NCBI GenBank assembly: GCA_964017195.1
Contig: OZ024890.1
Coordinates: forward strand, 65,956,367-66,020,366
Direction of reading: 5' to 3'
Length of the DNA stretch: 64,000 nucleotides
From: Siderastrea radians
Lineage: Eukaryota; Cnidaria; Anthozoa; Scleractinia; Rhizangiidae
The notes under the pieces were generated by a model that searched no databases, was not told the origin of the DNA, and saw nothing but the letters and a program-made list of their open reading frames with translations. This document shows positions 36,350 through 63,963 of the stretch, piece after piece (within the stretch, counting starts at the first letter, position 1; every line of letters begins with the position of its first letter). The position numbers and the translations under genes are program-made.

Positions 36350-36469
36350 CATAAACTGTGAAGTACTAACAAGAATTTAACAATAACATCTAATTATTAT
36401 ATATAACAATTGTTATATATAATAATTAGATGTTATTGTTAAATTCTTGTTAGTACTTAACAGTTTATG
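36350..36469. repeat. 120-bp palindrome without spacer
   Basis: The centre lies between 36409 and 36410. The inner 98 bases (36361-36458) are a perfect palindrome with no loop, and the next 11 bases on each side continue it with one mismatch. It sits inside the right half of the 34992-36672 element. Confidence 0.9.
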
Positions 36470-43892: not shown

Positions 43893-44735
43893 CAAAAGAC
43901 CGGTTTGACAGGTTTTCTACAAATGCCACGTCAGGCTTTAGGCTTACAAGGTGAACGATGAAAAAATGGCCGAAACGCTCGTTTTTCCGGAAGAAAACAA
44001 TGAATGCTTACCAAATTTTGAGGTTTTTAACGAAAACGAGATCCTAGAGACAAGCAATGACCTAGACGACAGTGAAATTTCTTTCTTTATTGAAGAAAAT
44101 CGAAACGTATTAAAATACAACAGAAAATACAAAAACTGACCTCAAGTCCGTTAAAGAAACAAGGGCCATTGAAGAAATTCCCGCCGAGGAACTTAACAAC
44201 CTTTTATGTCATTTGTTTGTCAAAGTCAGGAAACGGAACCCATCATTTCTCAGGAGCTGTCTTCAACAAATGCACAATTGTTGTCGGTCAGAAATCTCCA
44301 TCGCTATCTCTTCCAAAACGACCCGTGGTTAGTGATTCGGACGAAGATGACTGAGCTTGAAGTGCTGTATAACTTTTTTTGACTTGACTTTCGAGTTCTG
44401 TTTGTTCTGTCGAGTTCTTTCTTTTCGTAGTTTTACTCGGTGACCAAGAACATTGTTGTTTATCTAACTGTAAACCCGAAAATAATTCAGTTTTGCCTTG
44501 TTCCATCTTTGTTTTCCTTGCAAGTTTGAAATAAAATCCCGACGCTTCGCTCGATTGACACAGGTTTGACAAGTTTTTGTTTTTGACCAATCAACAACAA
44601 CCTCACGTCAAGCGCGCGAAACCTGACTCCGCTGGCGCGCTCACTCGCTGCTCAGAAGTCACGTTAGTTTGTCACGCAACTCAGGCAGTTTATAAACCAC
44701 TTTTCCGTTTTGTAGCTAAGTTGAATAATAAATCC

Positions 44736-44875
44736 CTTATTAGACGGTTTAGTGTGTAGTATCGTGGGATATTTTTACGAGTCGCGCCGTATTTTGGCGA
44801 GCCCGTAGGGCGAGTCAAAATACAAGAGACGAGTAAAAATATCCCACGATACTACACACTAAACCGTCTAATAAG
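44736..44875. mobile_element. foldback element with perfect 43-bp arms
   Basis: 44736-44778 and 44833-44875 are exact reverse complements. The 54-base loop contains GAGTC and GACTC-like words. No mismatches between the arms suggests recent insertion or conversion. Confidence 0.8.
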
Positions 44876-47267
44876 ATATATTTATCACAGTTTTGTTATT
44901 CAGTCGCCTTTATTTGGGTGACTTGGCAGTATGGTTTTGTAAACATAACGATAATGACTCACCGATCAAATTTCATTGCCCATATTTGAACGAATAACTA
45001 CGACTAAGAATAACTAATAATAATAGTAATAATAATAATAATAATTTATAATAATAATAATAATAATAATAATAACGACTAACTAATAACTAAGGCTTCG
45101 ACACTGTCGAAGCATTTTTAACATTTATCAAAGATTTTTTTTTTAGAATGATCTCGTTTCATTTAAAGATACATTGTCTATTTGGAGGAAAATTTGTGCC
45201 CGCAGTACCCTTGTCTGAGCTATAAAGTTGCATCTTTGCTCTTTGCAAATTTTTTGATGATAGGTTTCATCGTGGAAGTTATTTTTTAAACTCTCTGCAA
45301 ATGCTTGCTTAGCCATGTTTTTCTGCAGTAAAGAGAAACTACTTGTTTGATTGCAGCCTAGAATCTTCTCTTGACTACACCTTGTGGAGTTATTTAGCTA
45401 TACATTTATTCAGTTACACACCAAAAGAAAGCAATAAGTTATAATCATTGAAACAAAAAAAAGTAACCTTCATAGTTTTCCAGTAGTGAAATCTTTGACT
45501 ATAGCAAGAGTCAAGTACAATATTGCGATTAAAAAATGAATTAATATACATAGCAGAGGTTTCTTATGTTACATTTATTTATGTAGTTGTAACGTCAATA
45601 CTAATTTGTATTATTTTGTATCTTGTTATAGGAAAATGATCAAGAGACAAAGGTATTCAGTCACCTTTATTTGGGTGAACTGTCACTGAGTGTGGTTTTG
45701 TAAACGTAACGATTATAGCTCGCCTACCAAGTTTCATTTACCGCCCATAATTGATACTACGTTCCTCTTAGGAGAACACACCTGCTTGGCGATTTCGACA
45801 AGGAAAGGTAATTTCTTTATTTTATTTCTTTATATTTTTTTGTGAAAGCTAATTCGTTAAAATCGAATTCAGATTTTAATGTTGCTTGTTTTACCCTATA
45901 AAAATTCAAGTTGCATGTGGGAGTTTTTCTTTTTATAAAGTAATGCTATCTCACCCAAGTCACGTGTAGATAAAGACCTAACCTCCTTTCCCCCGTTCAG
46001 GTCCAAATACTAGAATACCCGAAAGAAGATTAAAGAACTGTCCAAGCAGGGCCTGTCAGCAATAGAGTTCGAAAGTCAATTTACATGCACGATCTAGCCG
46101 GCAAATATTCTTAAAATATTATTATCTGGAATTTCCAACAGAGTCAAATAAATAAAGAAGGTGATGAAGGACAATTATTGAGGGCTGTTGCACCAACAGT
46201 GAATTCACTTGATAATCTGATAACACGAACATACGTGGAAGTGAATGATCATCTTCAGCGGACGGCTGAAGAAGGTTAGCGACAGTATTCAGATTCAGTA
46301 GACGTAGCTAGTAATAGCTGTCACCTGACGGTCGAGGAAAAACAAATTACTAGCTATTTCTTGCAGTTAAGCGTCGAAAGGCCGTTGAAGAAAGGTCTTA
46401 ATTAAACCTTGATAAAGGCCCTCTACAAAGCCTGTAACTTTACCTTATGTAATTTTCATGTACTTTTCATGTTCCATTAACAAGAATGCTTAATTGTCAT
46501 GTGCGTTATGTCCTTGGAACACGTTGTTTGTTCGCTTCTTTTTCTGCAGTAGGAAACTTGTTTCTGAAACTTTTTGACTTACTTACTTGAGTAGAGGGTC
46601 GGCTGACCGTAGTTTTACAAATGTCTGTAAGAAACGTGCTATCTTACATAAAGGTGATGGAACCTTTTATTATTTATGGGGACCGTAGTTTTACAAATAT
46701 ATATTTAATGCAGCATTTTAGCGTAAAAAGACAGCCTTTTCATGGTCCCGATTTTTTACACAACATATATGTATATATTTCGCATTCAAGTCGTCAAATA
46801 TGCCACGCACGCTGACACTTCTTGACAAGGTTAATTTACTACTTATTACTTTTCCCGTGACAAGATTCCTATCGACATGAACATGCTGGTGTTTTTCTTG
46901 GGAAAATGTGTTCCAACCGCCACAAAAACCATGGTTTTGGACAGAAAAAACTAGAAGGCACTAGCTCTGCTATGTTTTTCGTCGGGACTGCGGCCAAATG
47001 CTGCGAACTCAAGCGTTGTGCTTAGCTTACCGAGTTCGCAGCAGAATCAACAACTAAGATGAAGTCCTTGAAGGCACATTTCCTACTTGAACTTTTTGCA
47101 TTCAACCAAAAAGACAACTGAGTATTCTTTAGAACTTTTCCTTCCATTTATAGATATTTGATATTTTTGTCAAGTTCTAAAATTCACTTCGGTCGAACTG
47201 ATTCGTTTTGCTAAACAAGCTAAGCTTTTTTAAAAAAACCTCTTTTTCAAAGGCGACGGTGGTCACG
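44876..47267. other. spacer with AAT microsatellite, no gene supported
   Basis: An (AAT)n tract lies at about 45017-45075. Two related blocks beginning GGAAAACGATCAAGA and GGAAAATGATCAAGA (near 43793 and 45631) point to a diverged tandem duplication. An exon-like stretch (about 46141-46275) is open for about 45 codons before a GT. No complete gene can be built. Confidence 0.3.
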
Positions 47268-47344
47268 AGTAGTTATAGAGTTGGCGGTTCGAGACCAGTT
47301 TTGAAGCAAAACTGTTCTTGAACAACGCCAACTCTATAACTACT
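47268..47344. repeat. 77-bp hairpin near the left edge of the viral element
   Basis: Perfect 19-base arms AGTAGTTATAGAGTTGGCG (47268-47286) and its complement (47326-47344) enclose a second perfect hairpin (CAGTTTTG, AAG, CAAAACTG at 47296-47314). It may be a foldback insertion or part of the terminal repeat of the virus-like element. The window lacks the right terminus needed to decide. Confidence 0.75.
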
Positions 47345-47396
47345 ATTCATTTGATGGAAATCATTTTTATGGAAAATCATTTGGAAATCATTTTAT

Positions 47397-47458
47397 GGAA
47401 AAGGAGCCGAGCAGGCTCGGGAAGTCGTTGACGAAGTCAACGAGTGAGGCTCCTTTCC
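47397..47458. repeat. T-shaped multi-hairpin sequence
   Basis: An outer stem (GGAAAAGGAGCC with GGCTCCTTTCC) encloses two adjacent perfect hairpins: CGAGC-AG-GCTCG and CGTTGAC-GAA-GTCAACG. The fold resembles the two-armed terminal hairpins of parvoviruses in shape only. Confidence 0.65.
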
Positions 47459-47460
47459 AG

Positions 47461-47649
47461 TTTTTTTGTGGGTAGAGATGTAGTCTCGTAGAGACTACGT
47501 CTCGTAGGGCACCAAAAAAACAATATGGTTTCATATACTTGATGCATTATATTGCTCCACATCTTTTTTCATATGCTGGTTCCATTTTTGCATTGGGGAA
47601 CAAAAGCGGAGCTTTTGTGAGGCAGTGAATTGATCGCTTTAGCGATCAA
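47461..47649. repeat. run of three further perfect hairpins
   Basis: GTAGTCTC-GTA-GAGACTAC (47480-47498), CAAAAGC-GGA-GCTTTTG (47601-47617) and TTGATCGCT-TT-AGCGATCAA (47630-47649) lie in under 200 bases. The first is flanked by T7 and A7 tracts that can extend the stem. Confidence 0.7.
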
Positions 47650-47798
47650 GAGGGGATGTTTCTTTTTGCGATGCTGGTTTCATTTTATGGATAACTATAT
47701 GTATTTTATTTCATGGACACAATTATTTGGATACTATATGTTTTTATTTCATGCGGTAACCAACGCATTCTTCCATCGCGTGACTTCTTTCAACTGGA

Positions 47799-48090
47799 AG
47801 TCTTAAAAACCACAGGGACTTTCCCGAGGAAATGAGTCATTAAGTTTTTCAATTGTTTTTCTAACGCGTTAGACAGTTCTTTTTGTCTTAAAAACCACAG
47901 GGACTTTCCCGAGGAAATGAGTCATTAAGTTTTTCAATTGTTTTTCTAACGCGTTAGACGGTTCTTTTTGTCTTGAAAACCACAGGGACTTTCCCGAGGA
48001 AATGAGTCATTAAGTTTTTCAATTGTTTTTCTAACGCGTTAGACAGTTCTTTTTGTCTTGAAAACCACAGGGACTTTCCCGATGAGTCAT
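47799..48090. promoter_or_regulatory. 85-bp tandem enhancer-like repeat with NF-kappaB and AP-1 consensus sites
   Basis: The NF-kappaB consensus GGGACTTTCC occurs at 47815-47824, 47900-47909, 47985-47994 and 48070-48079, exactly 85 bases apart. TGAGTCA, the AP-1 consensus, follows each at 47833, 47918, 48003 and 48083: 8 bases after the first three and 3 after the last. Between units lies the palindrome CTAACGCGTTAG. The array is at the left end of the virus-like element, beyond the 3' end of its polymerase gene. The sites are seen directly; enhancer function is inferred. Confidence 0.8.
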
Positions 48091-48128
48091 CAGATTGTCA
48101 TGTAATATCAGATGAACTTGTATTTGAA

Positions 48129-48219
48129 GTAAAGTTTGTCAGTAAAGTTTGTCAGTAAAGTTTGTCAGTAAAGTTTGTCAGTAAAGTTTGTCAGTAAAGT
48201 TTGTCAGTAAAGTTTGTAG
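48129..48219. repeat. 13-bp tandem array, seven units
   Basis: The unit GTAAAGTTTGTCA is repeated at 48129, 48142, 48155, 48168, 48181, 48194 and (last two bases changed) 48207. It lies between the NF-kappaB/AP-1 array and the CRE array. Confidence 0.95.
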
Positions 48220-48263
48220 TGAACAGAAAAGTAGACTGTGCTTACGGAACTTGTATGGAGACC

Positions 48264-48519
48264 GACACAGCTGTGTCGTGACGTCATCACTAATAGCTAT
48301 TGTGTCAATGGGTTTAAATAATATTAAGCCACAAAACGCCACAGCTGTGGCGTGACGTCATTACTGATAGCTATTGTGTCAATGGGTTTAAATAATATTA
48401 AGCCACAAAACGCCACAGCTGTGGCGTGACGTCATTACTAATAGCTATTGTGTTAATGACATGAGACTATCGTATGATCTCGGTCAACCACAAAACGCCA
48501 CAGCTGTGGCGTGACGTCA
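48264..48519. promoter_or_regulatory. four composite E-box-palindrome plus CRE repeats
   Basis: The full CRE, TGACGTCA, occurs at 48279, 48353, 48427 and 48512. Each is preceded at one or two bases by a 14-base palindrome with a CAGCTG E-box core: GACACAGCTGTGTC at 48264, and GCCACAGCTGTGGC at 48338, 48412 and 48497. Spacings are 74, 74 and 85. The last CRE ends six bases before the polymerase stop codon (48525). Confidence 0.8.
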
Positions 48520-48524
48520 CATCT

Positions 48525-50747
48525 TCAGATTGCATAATGTCCGTAAGAGAAACTGTTGATTCCATCGTTTGCTATATATCGTTTATCGTCGAAACAGCTA
48601 AGTGACACTTTGTTTATTTCATAACTTCCAAGTTGATGTTTGCTGCTTCGAATAGTTTTCATGGTATGATGTATTTGTTTGTTATTAATTAATACATTTT
48701 TATAACCTTCATGTTTGATATTGTTCTTTATTATGTTCTTCTTGATTCCCTTGGCTGTTTTCCCTACTTTCTGGTTGTCTTTTATGTAACTGTACATTTT
48801 TGATCGCAAACCGACGAATTCTGTGATTGGTATTCCAGCTGCTTCATCCTTGAATTTACCGATTACCTTCTTGTTTGTCTTATCGAAATACGGAGAGTTT
48901 TCTGGATAGTCGCTGTTGTCAAATCGATCTTTGTCATTCCAAAAGTCTTGGTACACATCTTCGGCTTCAATCTCATATGTCAGACTGTCTGTGTCGGTGA
49001 AGAGCAGCTTGGCTTTGTCTCCATACTTTTCTTTTATGTAGTTATAATGAAAATTATACATCAATGTCTTGCTCAGATCTAGAATACACATTCCTACATA
49101 TGCAGGCCTGTTTAAAGTGAGCGTTTCCTTTATTTTATGCACTGCAACTAGATTTTCGTTGAATATCTTACTGCTTACATAAGTAGGTTTAGAAGCCATC
49201 TTCAATAGTTTCTTTTCATCTGTAATAAGTCTGATATCGATCCGTCTTTTTAAATTTTCCATAGTTTTACCGAACACTGAGTTATTCATTAGTTTGAAGA
49301 AATCTTTTTCGAATGAATTTTTCGCTTGAGTACGTTTCAGTGTATTGAATTGAATGTATTGTTTGAGCCAAGGTGACTGATTGAATTCTAAAACTCTATG
49401 GACTTTGTTTATTTTCAATCCAAGATCAAGGTACAGTTGCAGGTTTCTGTAATGCAGAACATATTTTTCTTTATTGCTTAATGTAGGGATCAGTTTGCTT
49501 ACTAGTCCTGTCGATATATTGTATTTTGTAGCTATTGTTTTACAATACTCAGACAGCATATGTTTATTAACACAAACTCTCTCGGCGGCTAATGGATAGT
49601 CGTTATGAAGGTTATGTAACTCTTTGGGGTATTCTAGATCAACTTCTAGTATCAATCCTTTATTGCTGTCTTCATTATACTGAGCTAAATTGATTTTATT
49701 AATCTGCTTTTCAGTCATCCATTTGAAATCACCAGTGGGGAGATATTGACTCATAGCCCAACCGTATAAATTATTAGCATCAAGATACATGATATACTTT
49801 GATGGCGCCTTCTCATCGTATTCTTTCATGTACTTATTGTTTGCTTTACCATATCGATTGGCTATATAAGATATACCGCCTCTCATGCCTTTTTCAATGA
49901 ATTGAAACATGTCTATGTCTGTCATTAGTTCTAATTGAATATTAGTCATTTTTAGCATAGCATCCCAAGATAATCCTGGAGATGTAAAGTAGTGACAAGG
50001 ATCAAGTTTATAATACTGAAGACAGGTTTTACGGAAGTTTTCAAACACGTCAGCTAATAGAAGAATATCAGACTTAAGATATAGATTGTGGTATTCACCC
50101 ATATTTTTAAGATTGAATGTCTCCCAAACAATCCGAGCATGTTTATATTCATCATCTGAAATATGCTCATTATTCAATATGCTGTAAAATTCTTCTTTCG
50201 TTGGTAATTCTGTTTTATCGAATTTTTCAAAACTGTCCATGAAATCGTATGGATAAATACCTTTTCGCATCATAAGATTGAATTTTTCTTTTTTGAATTT
50301 TTTGCTTGTATATTTCAAAGCTTCTGACGGCAAATTACTGACTAATTTATCCAAACTTGAGCTCATAAACTGGAAACCATCAATGAAGGTAAGATGATTA
50401 CCAAGCATGAAAGCCGTATATTTTTCCATATTGTTTGGAATTGCATTGATATTCATTTGTTTCTCCTCTCCTTTCTTATTTTTGTATGCATGTTTCTTAA
50501 CAATAGCTCCAATTTCTTGCATAATGAAATGACTGTCATAACCTCTCAAATTATGGAATATAACAGGAATTTTAATTTCTTCTGGATTTATTCTAAGTTT
50601 CAGATTACAGTCTTGATGTGCTGAGCCTCTGTATTTGCCAGTAATATGGCAATGATCTCTGACTCGAATGTCTTTTTCAGTATATTTTTTATCACAGATG
50701 TGACATGTTGTTGCTTTTTTGAATTCATCTTCATCCTCTTTTGTCAT
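48525..50747 (-). CDS. protein-primed type B DNA polymerase, C-terminal part (Polinton/adintovirus)
   Basis: This 740-residue ORF holds the polymerase half and two exonuclease motifs. Visible in order: a zinc/HNH-like segment (CHICDKKY...CHITGKYRGSAHQDC), ExoII NLRGYDSHF, ExoIII YLKSDILLLADVF, motif A DANNLYGWAM, motif B KLMNNSVFGKTMEN and motif C TDTDS. All catalytic aspartates are present, so it looks functional. It replicates the linear viral genome from protein-primed ends. ExoI is in the abutting upstream ORF: the ATG here follows that ORF's TAA by two bases, in the -1 frame. In the family these normally form one polypeptide of about 1,100-1,200 residues, so a one-base frameshift, a sequencing error in an A run, or stop-restart translation are the alternatives. 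Confidence 0.92.
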   Translation of the reverse strand: MTKEDEDEFKKATTCHICDKKYTEKDIRVRDHCHITGKYRGSAHQDCNLKLRINPEEIKIPVIFHNLRGYDSHFIMQEIGAIVKKHAYKNKKGEEKQMNINAIPNNMEKYTAFMLGNHLTFIDGFQFMSSSLDKLVSNLPSEALKYTSKKFKKEKFNLMMRKGIYPYDFMDSFEKFDKTELPTKEEFYSILNNEHISDDEYKHARIVWETFNLKNMGEYHNLYLKSDILLLADVFENFRKTCLQYYKLDPCHYFTSPGLSWDAMLKMTNIQLELMTDIDMFQFIEKGMRGGISYIANRYGKANNKYMKEYDEKAPSKYIMYLDANNLYGWAMSQYLPTGDFKWMTEKQINKINLAQYNEDSNKGLILEVDLEYPKELHNLHNDYPLAAERVCVNKHMLSEYCKTIATKYNISTGLVSKLIPTLSNKEKYVLHYRNLQLYLDLGLKINKVHRVLEFNQSPWLKQYIQFNTLKRTQAKNSFEKDFFKLMNNSVFGKTMENLKRRIDIRLITDEKKLLKMASKPTYVSSKIFNENLVAVHKIKETLTLNRPAYVGMCILDLSKTLMYNFHYNYIKEKYGDKAKLLFTDTDSLTYEIEAEDVYQDFWNDKDRFDNSDYPENSPYFDKTNKKVIGKFKDEAAGIPITEFVGLRSKMYSYIKDNQKVGKTAKGIKKNIIKNNIKHEGYKNVLINNKQIHHTMKTIRSSKHQLGSYEINKVSLSCFDDKRYIANDGINSFSYGHYAI

Positions 50748-50749
50748 TC

Positions 50750-52246
50750 TTAATTTGGTTTATCGAAATGTTTTTTCATTACTTTTTTACAGTATTTCAC
50801 TTCTTCTAACATATTTTCCATGAATTTGTACACAGCCTTTTCGCCTCTATATATTTGTATTGGTTTTGTATATTTGTCATCATAACAACAAACCACTTTA
50901 TAACCATATCCACAGTCTGTATGTCTTTGGTATGCTTCTGTGTATGATTTCTTACCTTCTTGTCTACATCCATGAATTTTCTCTGTGATAGCCTCGAAAT
51001 CAGCATAAATAACAAATGGTACAGGTTGCTGTTTATGAAAGTTGTTGAATTTTAATATATTGTTATCTTTAGTTGGCATTTTAATTGCTTGAGTGCCATT
51101 AACTTGTATGCAAATATCTTTATGATTGATCAATACCCTGTCAGAACTAAAACATTGCAGACAGTGCATACAAAAGTGTTTTCTATGTTCATGTTTTGTT
51201 TGGTTATACATGAATTTGTTGAAATCTTTTATAAGAACATAATGATTGTTCTCATTTTCAGTTATTAAAAGTAGTTCCATATGATCTTCATTCTTTTCTT
51301 TTGAAATATAGATGGGGTAAGGTTGTTTGTTTTCATAGCCGAATACATTTATATTGATGCTGTTTTGCTTCTCAATTTTGTTGTAATGTTTGACACAAAC
51401 TGGGAATTCAATACCGGAGTAATTTAATTTTTCAATGTATTGTTTGTCAACCTTTTTTATTCTTTGAGGATATTTTTCTTGTGGATTTATATGTCTAATA
51501 TGACACCATCGGAAGCATTCATTATCCTTATTTTTCATGTTTATTAAACCTTTAGCACTGTTTCGCAGTTCTTCAGGAAGTTGGATATATGAGGATCCCT
51601 TCATAGGCTCATATTTAGCAATGTTTAGGTAATGGTCATTAATTTCTTTTACAGTCCATCCTGATCCTTCTGATATCCATTGAGCTATTTTGTTTATGAT
51701 GTTTTCTGAAGAAATTTTTAATGATTCACTGATTCCCACTTGGTTGATTATTGTTTGACTTGCGCTATTGAAATATGCTGACTTTTCGATTATTACATCA
51801 GCTGATATTTTTTCGAAAGTGACTTTCAATGTTTCAACGTATTTCAAGCCTTTCATTTCATTCAACAAAGTTGTTACTTGACGTTCTGCACCTTTTCGTG
51901 TATTTTGCATTTGAACAAGCGGATCTCTGTTGTTTCTTATGTTAATTTCATAAGATTTTACAAAACCTTTTAAAGCTTTGTCGGTTTGTTTTATTATGGT
52001 TCTTGGTGTTGGAACCGGTTTTTTGACAGCATTTTTCTTAGTTCTTAGTGCTGGGACTGGTTGAATAATATTATCTTCATACTGCTTGACCATTTCTTTG
52101 ACACTCTTACGAGGTGTTGGTATTGGTCTTCTTTTTTGTTGAACTAGCTTCTTATTCTCCTGCTTCAGAAGCAATTTAATAAGTTGTGATTTGCTGAGTT
52201 TCTTCAAACTAGCTTTATCCATATTAATATGATTAGATTCTTTCAT
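50750..52246 (-). CDS. type B DNA polymerase, N-terminal part (Polinton/adintovirus)
   Basis: This 498-residue ORF starts with a basic Pro-rich leader in which a PxPTPR motif recurs (PIPTPRK, PVPTPRT). A less conserved helical region follows, then a His/Cys finger-like segment (HFCMHCLQCF...H...C, near 365-385) and the ExoI motif YADFEAI (near 415). It ends just before the zinc/HNH segment that begins the next ORF, which places the break inside a conserved linker. The upstream region carries TATAGTAATATATA (minus strand, 52272-52259), shared with the next gene upstream. Together with the following ORF it makes the whole polymerase. Confidence 0.88.
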   Translation of the reverse strand: MKESNHINMDKASLKKLSKSQLIKLLLKQENKKLVQQKRRPIPTPRKSVKEMVKQYEDNIIQPVPALRTKKNAVKKPVPTPRTIIKQTDKALKGFVKSYEINIRNNRDPLVQMQNTRKGAERQVTTLLNEMKGLKYVETLKVTFEKISADVIIEKSAYFNSASQTIINQVGISESLKISSENIINKIAQWISEGSGWTVKEINDHYLNIAKYEPMKGSSYIQLPEELRNSAKGLINMKNKDNECFRWCHIRHINPQEKYPQRIKKVDKQYIEKLNYSGIEFPVCVKHYNKIEKQNSININVFGYENKQPYPIYISKEKNEDHMELLLITENENNHYVLIKDFNKFMYNQTKHEHRKHFCMHCLQCFSSDRVLINHKDICIQVNGTQAIKMPTKDNNILKFNNFHKQQPVPFVIYADFEAITEKIHGCRQEGKKSYTEAYQRHTDCGYGYKVVCCYDDKYTKPIQIYRGEKAVYKFMENMLEEVKYCKKVMKKHFDKPN

Positions 52247-53020: not shown

Positions 53021-54058
53021 TTATATATCCTTCAAGTCCTTGAACGGTATCCAACTGTTGAATTCATCACTATACCCCTTCCACTTTACCAAAGCTTGTT
53101 TCTTCTTATAATCCCTCCGAATCACTTTATCAATTCTGAATACCTGTTGTTCAGCTTTCAGTAATTCAGGTTCATAGAAACTCCCTTGAATGTCTTCATG
53201 TCTGAGATCCTTTAGTTTGTATGTGATTGGATTCGTATGTTGTATTTCATCAACTGTGAAAATTTCCTCAGACCAATTTGGGGTATATCCTTTATCAAAC
53301 ACATTCCGTTTATACTTACTTATTCTAACCTTATCACCTATTTTGAATTTCGGTTTTTGTTTTAATGTTTCCATATCACCGTACAGATTAAAGTAAACAA
53401 CTCCTTCATTCTTCTTTTTGCTTGCTTCTGTAGGTGTCATCTTTGTGCTTGAATGTCTGGTATTGTTATACTGTTTCACTAATTTAGGTAACATGTCAAC
53501 ATACTGTGTATTACCTTGAACAGTAAACTGTTTCCACATTTTGGTTTTGATTGTACGGTTCCATCTTTCACAAACTGACGACTTTTCTTCATTCTCAGTT
53601 GAGTACAAGGTTATTTTATTCTTATCAAGTAGTTCGTTAACATGTTTGTTGTAATACTCTTTGCCTTTATCTGTCCAAAGATATTGTGGTTTACGCCCCT
53701 CTTTGAATATTGTTTTAAAAGCATTCATAACGGTTTCACCCTTTTTATCTTTTAATGGGACGATCCAACCGTATTTAGAGAATACATCTAGAATCATTAG
53801 AAGATATCTGTAGCCAGCGTTCCATCGACTGAATTTTTGCATCTCAACGATATCTGAACACCATGTCTCGTCAATATGGTTTACAATTACCCGCCGCCGG
53901 GTGAAGTTACGCTTTATCGGTTTATGAAGCTCATCAGCTAATTTTTCTTGCCAGTTTTCTTCACTCGACGGCCTTTTCCGTTTTTTGTCTTCCTTTGTTT
54001 TACACCAAGACCTAGTTTTTGTTTTGTGTTGATTAGAAATCGTGCTGTTTGTCCCCAT
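53021..54058 (-). CDS. retroviral-type DDE integrase with chromodomain
   Basis: This 345-residue ORF has an integrase core with the first Asp in CSDIVEM (near 70), the second in LWTDKGKEY (near 130) and the Glu in CERWNRT (near 164), so the triad is complete. A chromodomain lies at the C-terminus (about 305-345, with VKWKGYSDEFNSW). It inserts the element into host DNA. The chromodomain may steer it to modified chromatin. The N-terminal basic leader overlaps the 3' end of the PLA2-like gene by about 120 bases in another frame, so the true start may be an internal Met. It appears intact. Confidence 0.93.
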   Translation of the reverse strand: MGTNSTISNQHKTKTRSWCKTKEDKKRKRPSSEENWQEKLADELHKPIKRNFTRRRVIVNHIDETWCSDIVEMQKFSRWNAGYRYLLMILDVFSKYGWIVPLKDKKGETVMNAFKTIFKEGRKPQYLWTDKGKEYYNKHVNELLDKNKITLYSTENEEKSSVCERWNRTIKTKMWKQFTVQGNTQYVDMLPKLVKQYNNTRHSSTKMTPTEASKKKNEGVVYFNLYGDMETLKQKPKFKIGDKVRISKYKRNVFDKGYTPNWSEEIFTVDEIQHTNPITYKLKDLRHEDIQGSFYEPELLKAEQQVFRIDKVIRRDYKKKQALVKWKGYSDEFNSWIPFKDLKDI

Positions 54059-54573
54059 TTTGGCATCTGTCCATAAGGTATTTTATCCAATGACTTGACC
54101 ATTACTTTGTCACATTCACCTTTGTCCTTCCCCATGTCATAACAAATATCATGATGAGCTGATATTCTATCAACTTCATTGTAAGGTTGTACGTGCCACT
54201 TGGTGACCTCTCCAGTGTTTTTATCGTACTCTAACTGTTTATCTAGAGGGTTATATGCCCCCATGTATTTATACTTTCCAGGAGTCCATCCAGCTTTTGG
54301 TGTTGGTAATTTCCCAATTAGTTTATGGATATCAAAACCTGCGCCATCCAAATCCTTTCTGTCGGTTTTATACTTTCTATTTGGTCTGATTTTAGTAGAT
54401 AATTGATTAAGAGCTTGACTTCCAACATTCTGAATCATTGGATTTAACTTATCCAGAGTATAATCGATAGCCTTTTTCTGCAGTTTTGGGTTTCTCAAGG
54501 CTTCTGATCCATAATATCGTCCCATTTGAACAGCCTTTTTACCTAACCAAGGAATACCATGATGCACAAACAT
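53938..54573 (-). CDS. phospholipase-A2-like capsid protein, C-terminal frame
   Basis: This is a 211-residue ORF from its first ATG. The frame is in fact open upstream of that ATG to beyond 54633. It contains a glycine-rich segment (about 95-115) and a PLA2-like core with RISAHHDICYDMGKDKGECD, where the His-Asp pair corresponds to the active site of parvovirus-type PLA2. The tail is basic. In adintoviruses and parvoviruses such domains modify endosomal membranes during entry. The upstream open frame overlaps the 61-residue ORF at 54600-54785 and lies exactly -1 relative to it, so the two are probably one gene read through a frameshift or split by a mutation. Confidence 0.8.
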   Translation of the reverse strand: MFVHHGIPWLGKKAVQMGRYYGSEALRNPKLQKKAIDYTLDKLNPMIQNVGSQALNQLSTKIRPNRKYKTDRKDLDGAGFDIHKLIGKLPTPKAGWTPGKYKYMGAYNPLDKQLEYDKNTGEVTKWHVQPYNEVDRISAHHDICYDMGKDKGECDKVMVKSLDKIPYGQMPKWGQTARFLINTKQKLGLGVKQRKTKNGKGRRVKKTGKKN

Positions 54574-60133: not shown

Positions 60134-60273
60134 TATATCATTTGTTTACATAAAATTTCGTATTTTGTTTGGAAAAATTAGGGTTATCATATATAAAAAC
60201 GCTCGCATAGCGTGTCGCATAGCGTGTCGCATAGCGTGTCGCTATGCAATAAAATTGTATAACATAATATCAT
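60134..60273. promoter_or_regulatory. divergent promoter with 12-bp repeats
   Basis: The spacer separates the leftward PPxY gene from the rightward ATPase gene. It has a TATATAAAA box (60191-60199, plus strand), then three exact copies of CGCATAGCGTGT (60205, 60217, 60229) and an inverted CGCTATGC. No TCTAA occurs before either ATG. The GC-rich repeat stands out from the AT-rich background. Confidence 0.6.
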
Positions 60274-60915
60274 ATGAAGATTCAAAATTACGACATCCAA
60301 GATGATGACAATGACGATTTTGTTCAATTAAAGAGTTTCATGCCAGACCGATGTTACAGGATGCTTATTTGTGCACCTTCTAATAGTGGCAAGACCAACC
60401 TAATTCTCGAAATGATCTACAGACTATTGTTCTTTGACAAGATATACCTTTACGCTCGCAATCTACAGCAAAGCAAATATAAGCACCTGTTGAAATCTTT
60501 CGAACCAATATCAAAAGAGGTCGGTTATGATGTGATAGAAGCGAGTAACAATGATATAATCCCTTTGACAGATTTGTCTGATGAAGGTCAAAAACTGGTG
60601 ATCTTCGATGATTATTTGAATACAGGAAAGAAAAACGACGAAAGGATAAGAGATTATTTCACAAATAGCAGAAACAAAAACTGCTCTTGTATCTTTTTGT
60701 CACAAAGTTATTATGGGACAGATAAGACAATCCGTTTGAACTGTTCACATTTTTGTGTTTTTGATTTTCCTTCTAGTAACGAGCAATCGATGATTTGTCG
60801 AGAACTGAACATAAATAAATCAGATTATCAGAAAGCTACTAAGGATCCATATAGTTTTTTGTATGTTGATAAGGTCAAAAAAAAGGTAGCCCGAAATTTC
60901 GACGAAAAAATCTAA
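60274..60915 (+). CDS. A32/FtsK-HerA-like genome packaging ATPase
   Basis: This 213-residue ORF has Walker A CAPSNSGKTN (near 35-44), Walker B KLVIFDDYL (near 108-116) and a sensor-like CIFLSQSYYGTDKTIR (near 146-161). The length and motif layout match the packaging ATPases of Polintons and other viruses with double-jelly-roll capsids, which drive DNA into the shell. It is the first gene of the rightward block. Its terminal ATC TAA supplies the TCTAA motif of the fibre gene 11 bases downstream. Confidence 0.88.
   Translation: MKIQNYDIQDDDNDDFVQLKSFMPDRCYRMLICAPSNSGKTNLILEMIYRLLFFDKIYLYARNLQQSKYKHLLKSFEPISKEVGYDVIEASNNDIIPLTDLSDEGQKLVIFDDYLNTGKKNDERIRDYFTNSRNKNCSCIFLSQSYYGTDKTIRLNCSHFCVFDFPSSNEQSMICRELNINKSDYQKATKDPYSFLYVDKVKKKVARNFDEKI
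60911..60915 (+). promoter_or_regulatory. TCTAA late-type promoter motif of the fibre gene
   Basis: TCTAA lies 11 bases before the ATG at 60927, and its TAA is the stop codon of the ATPase gene. Confidence 0.6.
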
Positions 60916-62909: not shown

Positions 62910-63392
62910 TATATATGTAAAAGAATATTCAATTGGAACCATGTTTCAGAACATTTAACAGAAGATCAAATATCTGAGTTGAAAGCATTGTACAAATTCT
63001 ATCATAAGCAATACTGGCTCCACAAAGAGTCATTTAAAAGCTTCAAGAAAAAGAATATGGCATGTAACATTGGATCTGTTGTATTGATAGTAACTGGGAC
63101 TGTGGCTGGTGGTGTGACGTTAAACCCCGCTGTACTTGGATCAATATCAGGCGCAGGGCTTATACTAAAAACATATTCAGAGGTCAAAAATTACAAAAGA
63201 AAGATCGAGATGTGTAAATTCGCGTACACTACGTATGAAAAGGTTTTAACTCATTTACGATCCTTTATGAGAGGACTGGAGTATAATGAAAAAGAATTTC
63301 TTGATCATGTCAAAGTTCTTGATGAAATAATCATTGAAATGTGTCCTTTAACTGACAAATTTGAAAAGAAATATAATAAGGTATTCATCTAA
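62910..63392 (+). CDS. membrane protein of the viral element, start codon disturbed
   Basis: The frame is open from 62910 to the stop at 63392 but has no ATG in its N-terminal part; the codon at 62979 is TTG. An ATG at 62915 lies in another frame and is followed at once by TAA, so a one-base frameshift near the start is likely. The protein has a basic Tyr/His-rich front, a hydrophobic Gly-rich hairpin (63075-63165, with two membrane-length stretches around a GGVTLNP turn) and a helical C-terminus. Similar small membrane proteins are, from memory, common in invertebrate Polintons. Role unknown. Confidence 0.6.
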   Translation, partial: YICKRIFNWNHVSEHLTEDQISELKALYKFYHKQYWLHKESFKSFKKKNMACNIGSVVLIVTGTVAGGVTLNPAVLGSISGAGLILKTYSEVKNYKRKIEMCKFAYTTYEKVLTHLRSFMRGLEYNEKEFLDHVKVLDEIIIEMCPLTDKFEKKYNKVFI

Positions 63393-63963
63393 TAATAGAT
63401 TTTATTTTATCACCAATAAGAGACATAATACTTGCCCAATATCGATCGTAAAAAGCTAATGTTTTTTTCGATTTACTAATTGGAATATTTTTGTAAGGTA
63501 TTCCCATCATCTTGAATATCTTTCTCATAATGAAATTTACGCTAATCATCCTTTTCCTTGTACCATTAACTTCATTTATAATCTTACCAATCTCTGCATA
63601 GATTATATCAATCTTATGTTTCTGACAGTTTGATATTTCAATGTTATATTTTTCTTTGATATCAAGTAATATGTTGTTGATGTGGTACTCTCGATGGTAA
63701 ACAGATTTTCTCACAAATCGATGTCTGTTCTCATAAAAATTAACATATTCTTTCACATAATTATATCCTTGTACTACACCACAACTTAGACATGCTAACA
63801 TCCCATCGTCGTTAATAATATACTGATTATCACAGCATGAATAATATTTCACTAAACGATCTTGTGGTTTTTCATTAGAATCTTCCAATTTTTGGTCACA
63901 AAAAGGACATGAAATTTCTCCTAATTCTTTCAGTTCATCGTGTATATCTTTATTACAATTCAT
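63385..63963 (-). CDS. VLTF3-like zinc protein (putative late transcription factor)
   Basis: This 192-residue ORF has two zinc knuckle pairs near the N-terminus (CPFCDQ; then CCDNQY and CLSCG at about 43-62). A conserved helical domain follows, with SVYHREYHINNILLDI (near 86-101) and a basic C-terminal half. The layout fits the poxvirus VLTF3-like family found in Polintons, virophages and giant viruses, which acts in late transcription. Its 3' end overlaps the convergent membrane-protein gene by a few bases. Upstream is TATAGTA-like early sequence rather than TCTAA. It is the best internal candidate for reading the TCTAA motif. Confidence 0.7.
   Translation of the reverse strand: MNCNKDIHDELKELGEISCPFCDQKLEDSNEKPQDRLVKYYSCCDNQYIINDDGMLACLSCGVVQGYNYVKEYVNFYENRHRFVRKSVYHREYHINNILLDIKEKYNIEISNCQKHKIDIIYAEIGKIINEVNGTRKRMISVNFIMRKIFKMMGIPYKNIPISKSKKTLAFYDRYWASIMSLIGDKIKSIIR

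Follow-up and report, generated by a model that had tools for sequence, protein, structure and literature searches.

What is a tandem array of kB-type sites, each paired with an AP-1-type site, doing at the end of a Polinton in the genome of the coral Siderastrea radians? The window is the whole stretch of 64,000 nucleotides analysed here, from contig OZ024890.1, and the Polinton in question is a 17.6-kb element that runs from 47268 to L075:1320 (equal to window coordinate 64853). The array lies in the left terminal inverted repeat (TIR) of this element, and a shorter version in the right TIR lies upstream of a VLTF3-like gene. The anatomy of the array, its position, its recurrence in other copies, and the partial conservation of its sites are direct observations. 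From the sequence, the array probably forms one part of a modular promoter or enhancer in the TIRs of a recently active Polinton family, which would use host stress and immune factors.

An exact-match scan of the window places the kB 10-mer GGGACTTTCC at 47815, 47900, 47985, and 48070 on the forward strand. TGAGTCA starts at 47833, 47918, 48003, and 48083, leaving 8, 8, 8, and 3 bases after the preceding kB site. No further exact GGGACTTTCC occurs on either window strand, and matches with one mismatch number two; TGAGTCA is found 11 times window-wide against 10.7 expected, which is the chance level. Tandem Repeats Finder (TRF) reports an 85-bp tandem repeat at 47800-48082 with 3.3 copies that are 98% alike. 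Tandem duplication of one 85-bp unit explains both the exact 85-base spacing and the kB/AP-1 pairing, so the four sites amount to a single independent occurrence. Unit 4 lacks 5 bp between its two sites, hence its gap of 3 rather than 8. An earlier note on this DNA had described four kB sites 85 bp apart, each with TGAGTCA at 3-8 bases; the positions and the spacing stand, whereas four independent kB sites are rejected, since TRF and the unit alignment resolve them into one duplicated unit. The array and the neighboring repeats, including those with a cyclic AMP response element (CRE), are as follows.

47800..48090, + strand: 85-bp tandem array of four kB + AP-1 units, unit 4 without 5 bp between its sites (TRF, unit alignment)
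47815..47824, + strand: kB-type site GGGACTTTCC, unit 1 (exact match)
47833..47839, + strand: AP-1-type site, unit 1, inside AGGAAATGAGTCA (exact match)
47900..47909, + strand: kB-type site, unit 2 (exact match)
47918..47924, + strand: AP-1-type site, unit 2 (exact match)
47985..47994, + strand: kB-type site, unit 3 (exact match)
48003..48009, + strand: AP-1-type site, unit 3 (exact match)
48070..48079, + strand: kB-type site, unit 4 (exact match)
48083..48089, + strand: AP-1-type site, unit 4 (exact match)
48128..48217, + strand: 13-bp tandem repeat AGTAAAGTTTGTC, 6.9 copies (TRF)
48263..48520, no strand assigned: palindrome CACAGCTGTG (full form longer) followed by CRE TGACGTCA, four times, as a 74-bp array and a further copy (TRF, palindrome scan)

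The 74-bp array spans 48266-48458, with a unit made up of a perfect palindrome and then TGACGTCA. Neither the 13-bp array nor the palindrome-CRE repeats figure in the earlier note. The CRE is located at 48279, 48353, 48427, and 48512, each time adjoining the palindrome CACAGCTGTG. One CACAGCTGTG-type copy is changed on both arms, yet it is still a perfect palindrome.

The array could in principle be a host repeat or host enhancer that adjoins the element and is unrelated to it, which is highly improbable given where the element ends. The features that set its boundaries, and the two genes nearest them, are listed here.

47262..47267, no strand assigned: left copy of the 6-bp target-site duplication GTCACG; the same hexamer stands past the right terminus (L075:1321-1326)
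47268..48255, no strand assigned: left TIR, inner boundary approximate (by-eye comparison with the element's own right end, L075:440-1320)
47268..47344, no strand assigned: terminal hairpin at the left TIR tip with 19-bp arms and a nested inner stem (fold z -13.3)
48525..52246, - strand: family-B polymerase gene, two open reading frames (ORFs) in one frame (740 + 498 amino acids: 48525-50747 and 50750-52246) with one in-frame stop between them, its 3' end facing the left array (ORF list, conserved motifs)
63385..63963, - strand: VLTF3-like gene, start codon facing the right TIR (ORF list, right-end comparison)

Opposite ends of six other elements align over 355-714 bp. In four of these six pairs, the TIRs start AGTAGTTATA and have the same hexamer on either side (GACATT, GTGTAG, GCTAAG, and GAAAGC, the last with its boundary taken one base inward of the blast boundary), and the remaining two pairs have no clean boundary. 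Perfect 6-bp target duplications are present in five of the seven elements examined, namely the window copy and these four. The array lies inside the TIRs of elements bounded in this way and at matching places in other copies; a host satellite beside the element is refuted by the TIR boundaries and target duplications. In the window element, the left TIR has four array units and the right TIR has two, one of which carries the kB variant GGGACTTCCC, at ~530 bp and ~600 bp from the tip, respectively. A search of the host genome with the array gave 45 matches, some overlapping (330 candidates, 40 scored). The earlier note had proposed looking for the array in other copies and in the right terminal repeat, and both searches bear it out. 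Its placement of the array at an element end is correct in that the array is in a TIR, although the flagged left copy is 3' of the polymerase gene and the promoter-side copy lies in the right TIR beyond the window.

The position of the right-hand copy suggests what the sites may do. Relative to the VLTF3-like ATG, the right TIR of the window element has kB at -182 and -267 and AP-1 at -169 and -249; kB + AP-1 units of right TIRs lie within about 150-650 bp upstream of the inward-pointing VLTF3-like gene. The copy at the left end, 3' of the polymerase gene, would owe its presence to the likeness maintained between the two TIRs. Among 39 loci chosen by the array, a VLTF3-like start stands 136-437 bp inward in 18 (one start codon is ACG), the polymerase 3' end is inward in 11, a polymerase remnant is on the outer side in 7, and neither is seen in 3. 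Ends carry 2-6 array units, a number that varies between copies (by alignment cut-off, with edge units counted). The loci L037, L054, L065, L066, L068, L069, and L074, in which the array sits beside an outer-side remnant of the polymerase 3' end, are rearranged copies that keep the kB/AP-1 array.

Recurrence was assessed in two samples that were not chosen by the array. The 805-Mb host genome contains a large Polinton population, with 1986 polymerase candidates at first look, of which 60 were scored, and 498 for the VLTF3-like gene, of which 150 were scored. The polymerase-side sample consists of the outer flanks of 40 of the 60 scored polymerases (rows 2-41), and the VLTF3-side sample consists of 700 bp upstream of the ATG in 38 of the 150 scored genes (every fourth row and the last). 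Site counts in both are restricted to sequence within the element, and the motif consensuses (kB, AP-1, CRE, p53, ETS, E-box, RUNX, and a 59-motif library) were not drawn from a database.

On the polymerase side, 12 of the 40 ends contain kB (all exact GGGACTTTCC), 33 contain AP-1, 16 contain CRE, and 36 contain AP-1 or CRE. The same ends show AGGAAATGASTCA in 23, a perfect p53-type 20-mer in 16 (28 by a looser p53 pattern), CACGTG in 27, and the ETS sequence CAGGAAGT in 37. Among 35 host segments of the same length, kB is found in 6, AP-1 in 4, CRE in 4, and ETS in 2, and the composite, the perfect p53-type site, and TCACGTGA in none; AGGAAATGASTCA is absent from all 200 Markov sequences and from the 35 host segments. 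On the VLTF3 side, the 38 ends have kB in 20, AP-1 in 25, CRE in 16, AP-1 or CRE in 31, p53-type sites in 15 (12 perfect), an E-box in 19, and ETS in 32. The 65 host segments that serve as control for this side have kB in 7, AP-1 in 6, CRE in 3, an E-box in 4, and ETS in 2, and 20 element coding segments have one each of kB, AP-1, and ETS. Every kB-bearing VLTF3-side end (20/20) also has AP-1. Single-motif rates in the ends are above both host and Markov rates. The tip motif is in view in 29/40 and 13/38 ends, and most sites fall in recognizable element sequence.

The kB site is subfamily-specific. Other subfamilies have AGGAAATGASTCA, ETS, E-box, and p53-type sites, or the palindrome with CRE at -49 to -54 from the ATG. 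The emphasis that the earlier note placed on kB is right in that kB recurs across ends and too narrow in that AP-1/CRE is more general, with CRE, ETS, E-box, and p53-type sites in the same modules and kB missing in 28/40 polymerase-side and 18/38 VLTF3-side ends.

Spacing from the gene differs between site types. CRE stands at -49 to -54 from the ATG in all 16 CRE-bearing VLTF3-side ends. The kB-to-ATG distance is loose by comparison, because kB positions follow the number of 13-bp repeats: in ends that have these repeats, kB positions mostly step by 13, and the repeat number sets most kB-to-ATG distances at VLTF3 ends. A CATATAATAG core lies at most 40 bp from the end of the upstream stretch in 28/38 VLTF3-side ends, and by pattern another gene starts just upstream in 3/38.

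Several statistical comparisons address chance. For a deduplicated stretch of 554 nt, a Markov model predicts the exact kB 10-mer in 0.015% of sequences; none of 5000 such sequences combined kB, AP-1, and CRE, three motifs picked after being seen. The 59-motif library matches this stretch with 5 motifs against 1.9 ± 1.3, a level reached by 13/400 Markov sequences and 3/84 host segments. Applied to 40 ends, the fixed library has 9 motifs present in at least 8/40 ends against 4.6 ± 1.7 for letter-shuffled libraries, of which 7/300 reach 9. A variant of the library, to which ETS2 and a USF variant were added after the sequences had been seen, gives 8 motifs against a mean of 3.1 and a maximum of 7 in 100; the earlier fixed list is the test relied on.

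Substitution patterns provide a second line of evidence. Within the 85-bp unit, shared substitutions number 1 inside kB + AP-1 and 22 outside, versus 7 and 17 for private substitutions (Fisher one-sided p 0.028; L066 was left out for indels, and paired ends from a single element were combined). Of seven hand-picked shared alleles in kB, AP-1, and p53-type sites, five stay within the consensus (P 0.0036 on the assumption that every substitution is equal). In a GGAAA context, the AP-1 center is either G or C (GGAAATGAGTCA 21, GGAAATGACTCA 17), and both keep the consensus, as do T to C in kB and, in the p53-type site, T or C at position 10, A or G at position 13, and G to A at position 11. The consensus is broken by T at p53-type position 11 (11/30) and by TGACTAA (2). 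Among kB-like blocks linked to AP-1, 34/37 are exact GGGACTTTCC, with blocks of fewer than 7/10 matches left out. Taken together, the shuffled library, the shared substitutions, and the kept consensus favor function, not strongly.

A competing explanation is that the array is structural. Subterminal satellite-like repeats would arise by slippage or recombination, with a role in replication or packaging or with no role, and their likeness to binding sites would be chance in palindrome-rich DNA. The region is indeed rich in perfect palindromes, unit number varies between copies, and duplication of one motif unit suffices to explain the four sites. The relative L022 (IMGVR_UViG_3300028392_002905), whose polymerase is 47% identical over query residues 1-738, points the same way. 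Like the window element, it combines 13/14-bp and long-period subterminal arrays: at L022:14182-14487, a 13/14-bp repeat (x 5) and a 58-bp repeat (x 4) extend to the contig end, and short hairpins follow the last gene. The unit sequences are unrelated by eye, and the L022 arrays, at a place matching that of the window element, contain no kB, AP-1, CRE, p53, E-box, or ETS sites. Tandem ends therefore look more general than host-factor sites.

Other results also weigh against a promoter or enhancer function. Motifs of at least 14 bits taken alone are not enriched (3 against 1.7; 75/300 shuffled libraries reach 3). Rotating the kB + AP-1 mask around the 85-bp repeat gives a result at least as extreme at 9/85 positions. 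One polymerase-side end (L113) has kB without AP-1, and 4/40 and 7/38 ends have none of kB, AP-1, and CRE. Since the tip motif is out of view in 11/40 and 25/38 ends, some counted sites could lie beyond the element. Relatedness among the copies means that the counts are not independent, and the statistical support is modest and in part post hoc.

A purely structural array nevertheless fits other observations poorly, and it is doubtful as an explanation while carrying real weight. Where sampling did not depend on the array, the sites are found again within ends of differing surrounding sequence, and both kB and AP-1 also appear in single-unit ends outside any array. The middle base of AP-1 toggles between G and C with the consensus kept, and CRE holds its place relative to the ATG in 16/16 ends.

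Regulation by host factors, the preferred reading, would work through the right TIR, which would act as an inducible promoter for the VLTF3-like gene, whose product is a putative transcription factor. The TIR sites would be bound by NF-kB, AP-1, and CREB/ATF-type proteins of the host, and VLTF3-like transcription would rise in cells under stress, infection, or damage. The element would benefit, and the TIR sites may also help terminal replication. The modules resemble interchangeable cassettes: kB + AP-1 units that carry 13-bp spacers; an AP-1 composite with p53-type, ETS, and E-box sites; and the palindrome + CRE beside the core.

The sites might instead serve protein-primed replication rather than transcription, with host DNA-binding proteins at the termini helping replication to start, in the manner of NFI and Oct-1 at the ends of adenovirus. 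The array is present in both TIRs, including the end where it is 3' of a gene, and the element polymerase has motifs of what we take to be the protein-primed type. The tips themselves are hairpins of ~72-77 nt, seen also at L075:1246-1320 and at the tips of other loci, and in 51/52 tips examined the first 16 nt recur in inverted form within 95 nt. Both-sided changes are found at 7/25 predicted hairpin pairs among 10 selected tips (of 33 that are distinct), and some pairs are broken in single tips. The tip hairpin is possibly a replication or integration structure. Against a replicative role for the sites, the array lies hundreds of base pairs from either tip with a variable copy number, kB is missing from 28/40 polymerase-side ends, and the CRE position is constant relative to the ATG. 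This explanation is unlikely.

Integrase, polymerase, ATPase, TIRs, and target duplication identify Polinton/Maverick as the nearest family. Two further genes of the window element are listed below.

53021..54058, - strand: rve integrase with a C-terminal chromodomain (Pfam rve 1.4e-11, chromodomain 2.6e-7; PDB integrases match)
60274..60915, + strand: A32-like packaging ATPase (Pox_A32 1.4e-8)

An alignment of polymerase homologs shows conserved DANN, NNSVFGKT, and TDTDS, which are presumably motifs of protein-primed type B polymerases. The polymerase protein search scored 7995 candidates, all above cut-off; the 120 listed are 77-92% identical, and most homologs among the matches listed are ~1250 amino acids long. 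The window-copy polymerase is broken by one in-frame stop, and most of the 60 scored genome relatives are open for >1000 residues. Its Pfam match is an endonuclease VII-like domain alone, within the frame 48525-50747, and no PDB chain matches it significantly. A phospholipase A2-like domain, of a type known from parvovirus VP1, is found at 53938-54573 (- strand), where its frame overlaps that of the integrase. A 12-bp repeat, TCGCATAGCGTG x 3.3, fills 60203-60242 in a short gap between two divergent element genes and is perhaps a further promoter cassette. Rfam and tRNA scans gave no matches.

The label "adintovirus-like," applied earlier to the element, is not established. According to PMC11071296, adintoviruses are defined by a C-terminal chromodomain on the integrase, a polymerase with an N-terminal OTU-like domain, and a hexon recognizable by BLASTp to adintovirus hexons. 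The window element matches the chromodomain; a Pfam scan alone of the 498-amino acid N-terminal polymerase piece found no OTU family (Nsp2_AV is below cut-off), and the 429-amino acid candidate for the double jelly-roll capsid protein of Polintons has an AlphaFold mean predicted local distance difference test (pLDDT) score of 41 and no PDB match. Vertebrate Mavericks, as far as the consulted part of PMC8097293 describes them, have TIRs of 46-1447 bp and sizes of 12.7-24.6 kb, and they share with the window element the rve integrase, B-type polymerase, A32-like ATPase, TIRs, 6-bp target duplications, and size. The window element differs from that description in its chromodomain integrase, the VLTF3-like gene beside one TIR, hairpin tips, and TIRs packed with tandem host-factor-type sites, an array that the description does not contain.

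Single-sequence scans with the polymerase and integrase found no relative, alignment-based scans recovered L022 and two short matches, and a scan with the L022 polymerase found L022 itself as sole match. CCACAGGGACTTTCCCGA is absent from public viral contigs, and 21 stretches each have a single case of GGGACTTTCC with TGAGTCA no more than 30 bp away, without a second kB 10-mer in any of them. Two single matches to a longer pattern, in genome-contig records of Alteromonas and Akkermansia, look like chance. A blastn comparison of window 44000-49000 with phage records gave no match.

Host-factor sites in viral and mobile-element regulatory regions have precedents. Adenovirus inverted terminal repeats and the E4 promoter place host-factor sites in the terminal repeats of a linear protein-primed virus, beside an early gene; the Polinton likewise has such sites in its terminal repeats, for different factors and with hairpin tips and tandem 85-bp units. 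The long terminal repeats (LTRs) of endogenous retroviruses carry NF-kB, AP-1, or p53 sites and are also mobile-element repeats with inducible host-factor sites, whereas here the bearer is a DNA element with TIRs, and a VLTF3-like gene lies downstream of them. For the human cytomegalovirus major immediate-early enhancer, PMC6116278 reports AP-1 sites as well as binding; that enhancer is internal and belongs to a vertebrate herpesvirus, whereas the sites here are predicted, lie in longer units, and belong to a cnidarian Polinton TIR. Sites of this type in Polinton ends were not reported in the literature searched, which covered titles and opening parts of abstracts of the papers listed.

The host supplies a candidate partner for the kB sites. 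Mitochondrial cox1 (contig C439) is split in two, its second part directly preceded by a LAGLIDADG-type frame, and TGA is read as tryptophan, a combination that we take to be a hexacoral hallmark and that fits the cnidarian host implied earlier. A host gene with an NF-kB-type Rel domain (RHD) lies on C4, where two matches 2 kb apart carry RFRYPCEGPSHGGLPG. The binding profile of an anemone NF-kB resembles those of human p50 and Nematostella NF-kB (PMC5700166), and a 2026 review describes several holozoan NF-kBs with similar specificity and some variation (PMC13042239). On the host side of the window (1-47000), a scan of 97 ORFs found the guanylate-binding protein domains GBP_C in 2 and GBP in 2. 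Host DNA also contains a perfect 98-bp palindrome at 36361-36458.

If the sites work as proposed, a virus-like animal lineage outside vertebrates would hang its own gene on host immune and stress factors, as cytomegalovirus does. HIV likewise ties its own gene to such factors. In the anemone, NF-kB binding activity is higher after symbiont loss by menthol or heat (PMC5700166), so the elements could be transcribed or mobilized in bleaching-type stress. It is possible, and offered tentatively, that this Polinton lineage, for which one cnidarian genome contains almost two thousand polymerase candidates, swaps and duplicates promoter cassettes tuned to the NF-kB/AP-1, p53-type, CREB-type, and ETS pathways. 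Subfamilies would then wake under different stresses, and each insertion would scatter two inverted stress-responsive enhancers that may rewire host immunity. The many inserted copies would constitute a ready source of inducible enhancers.
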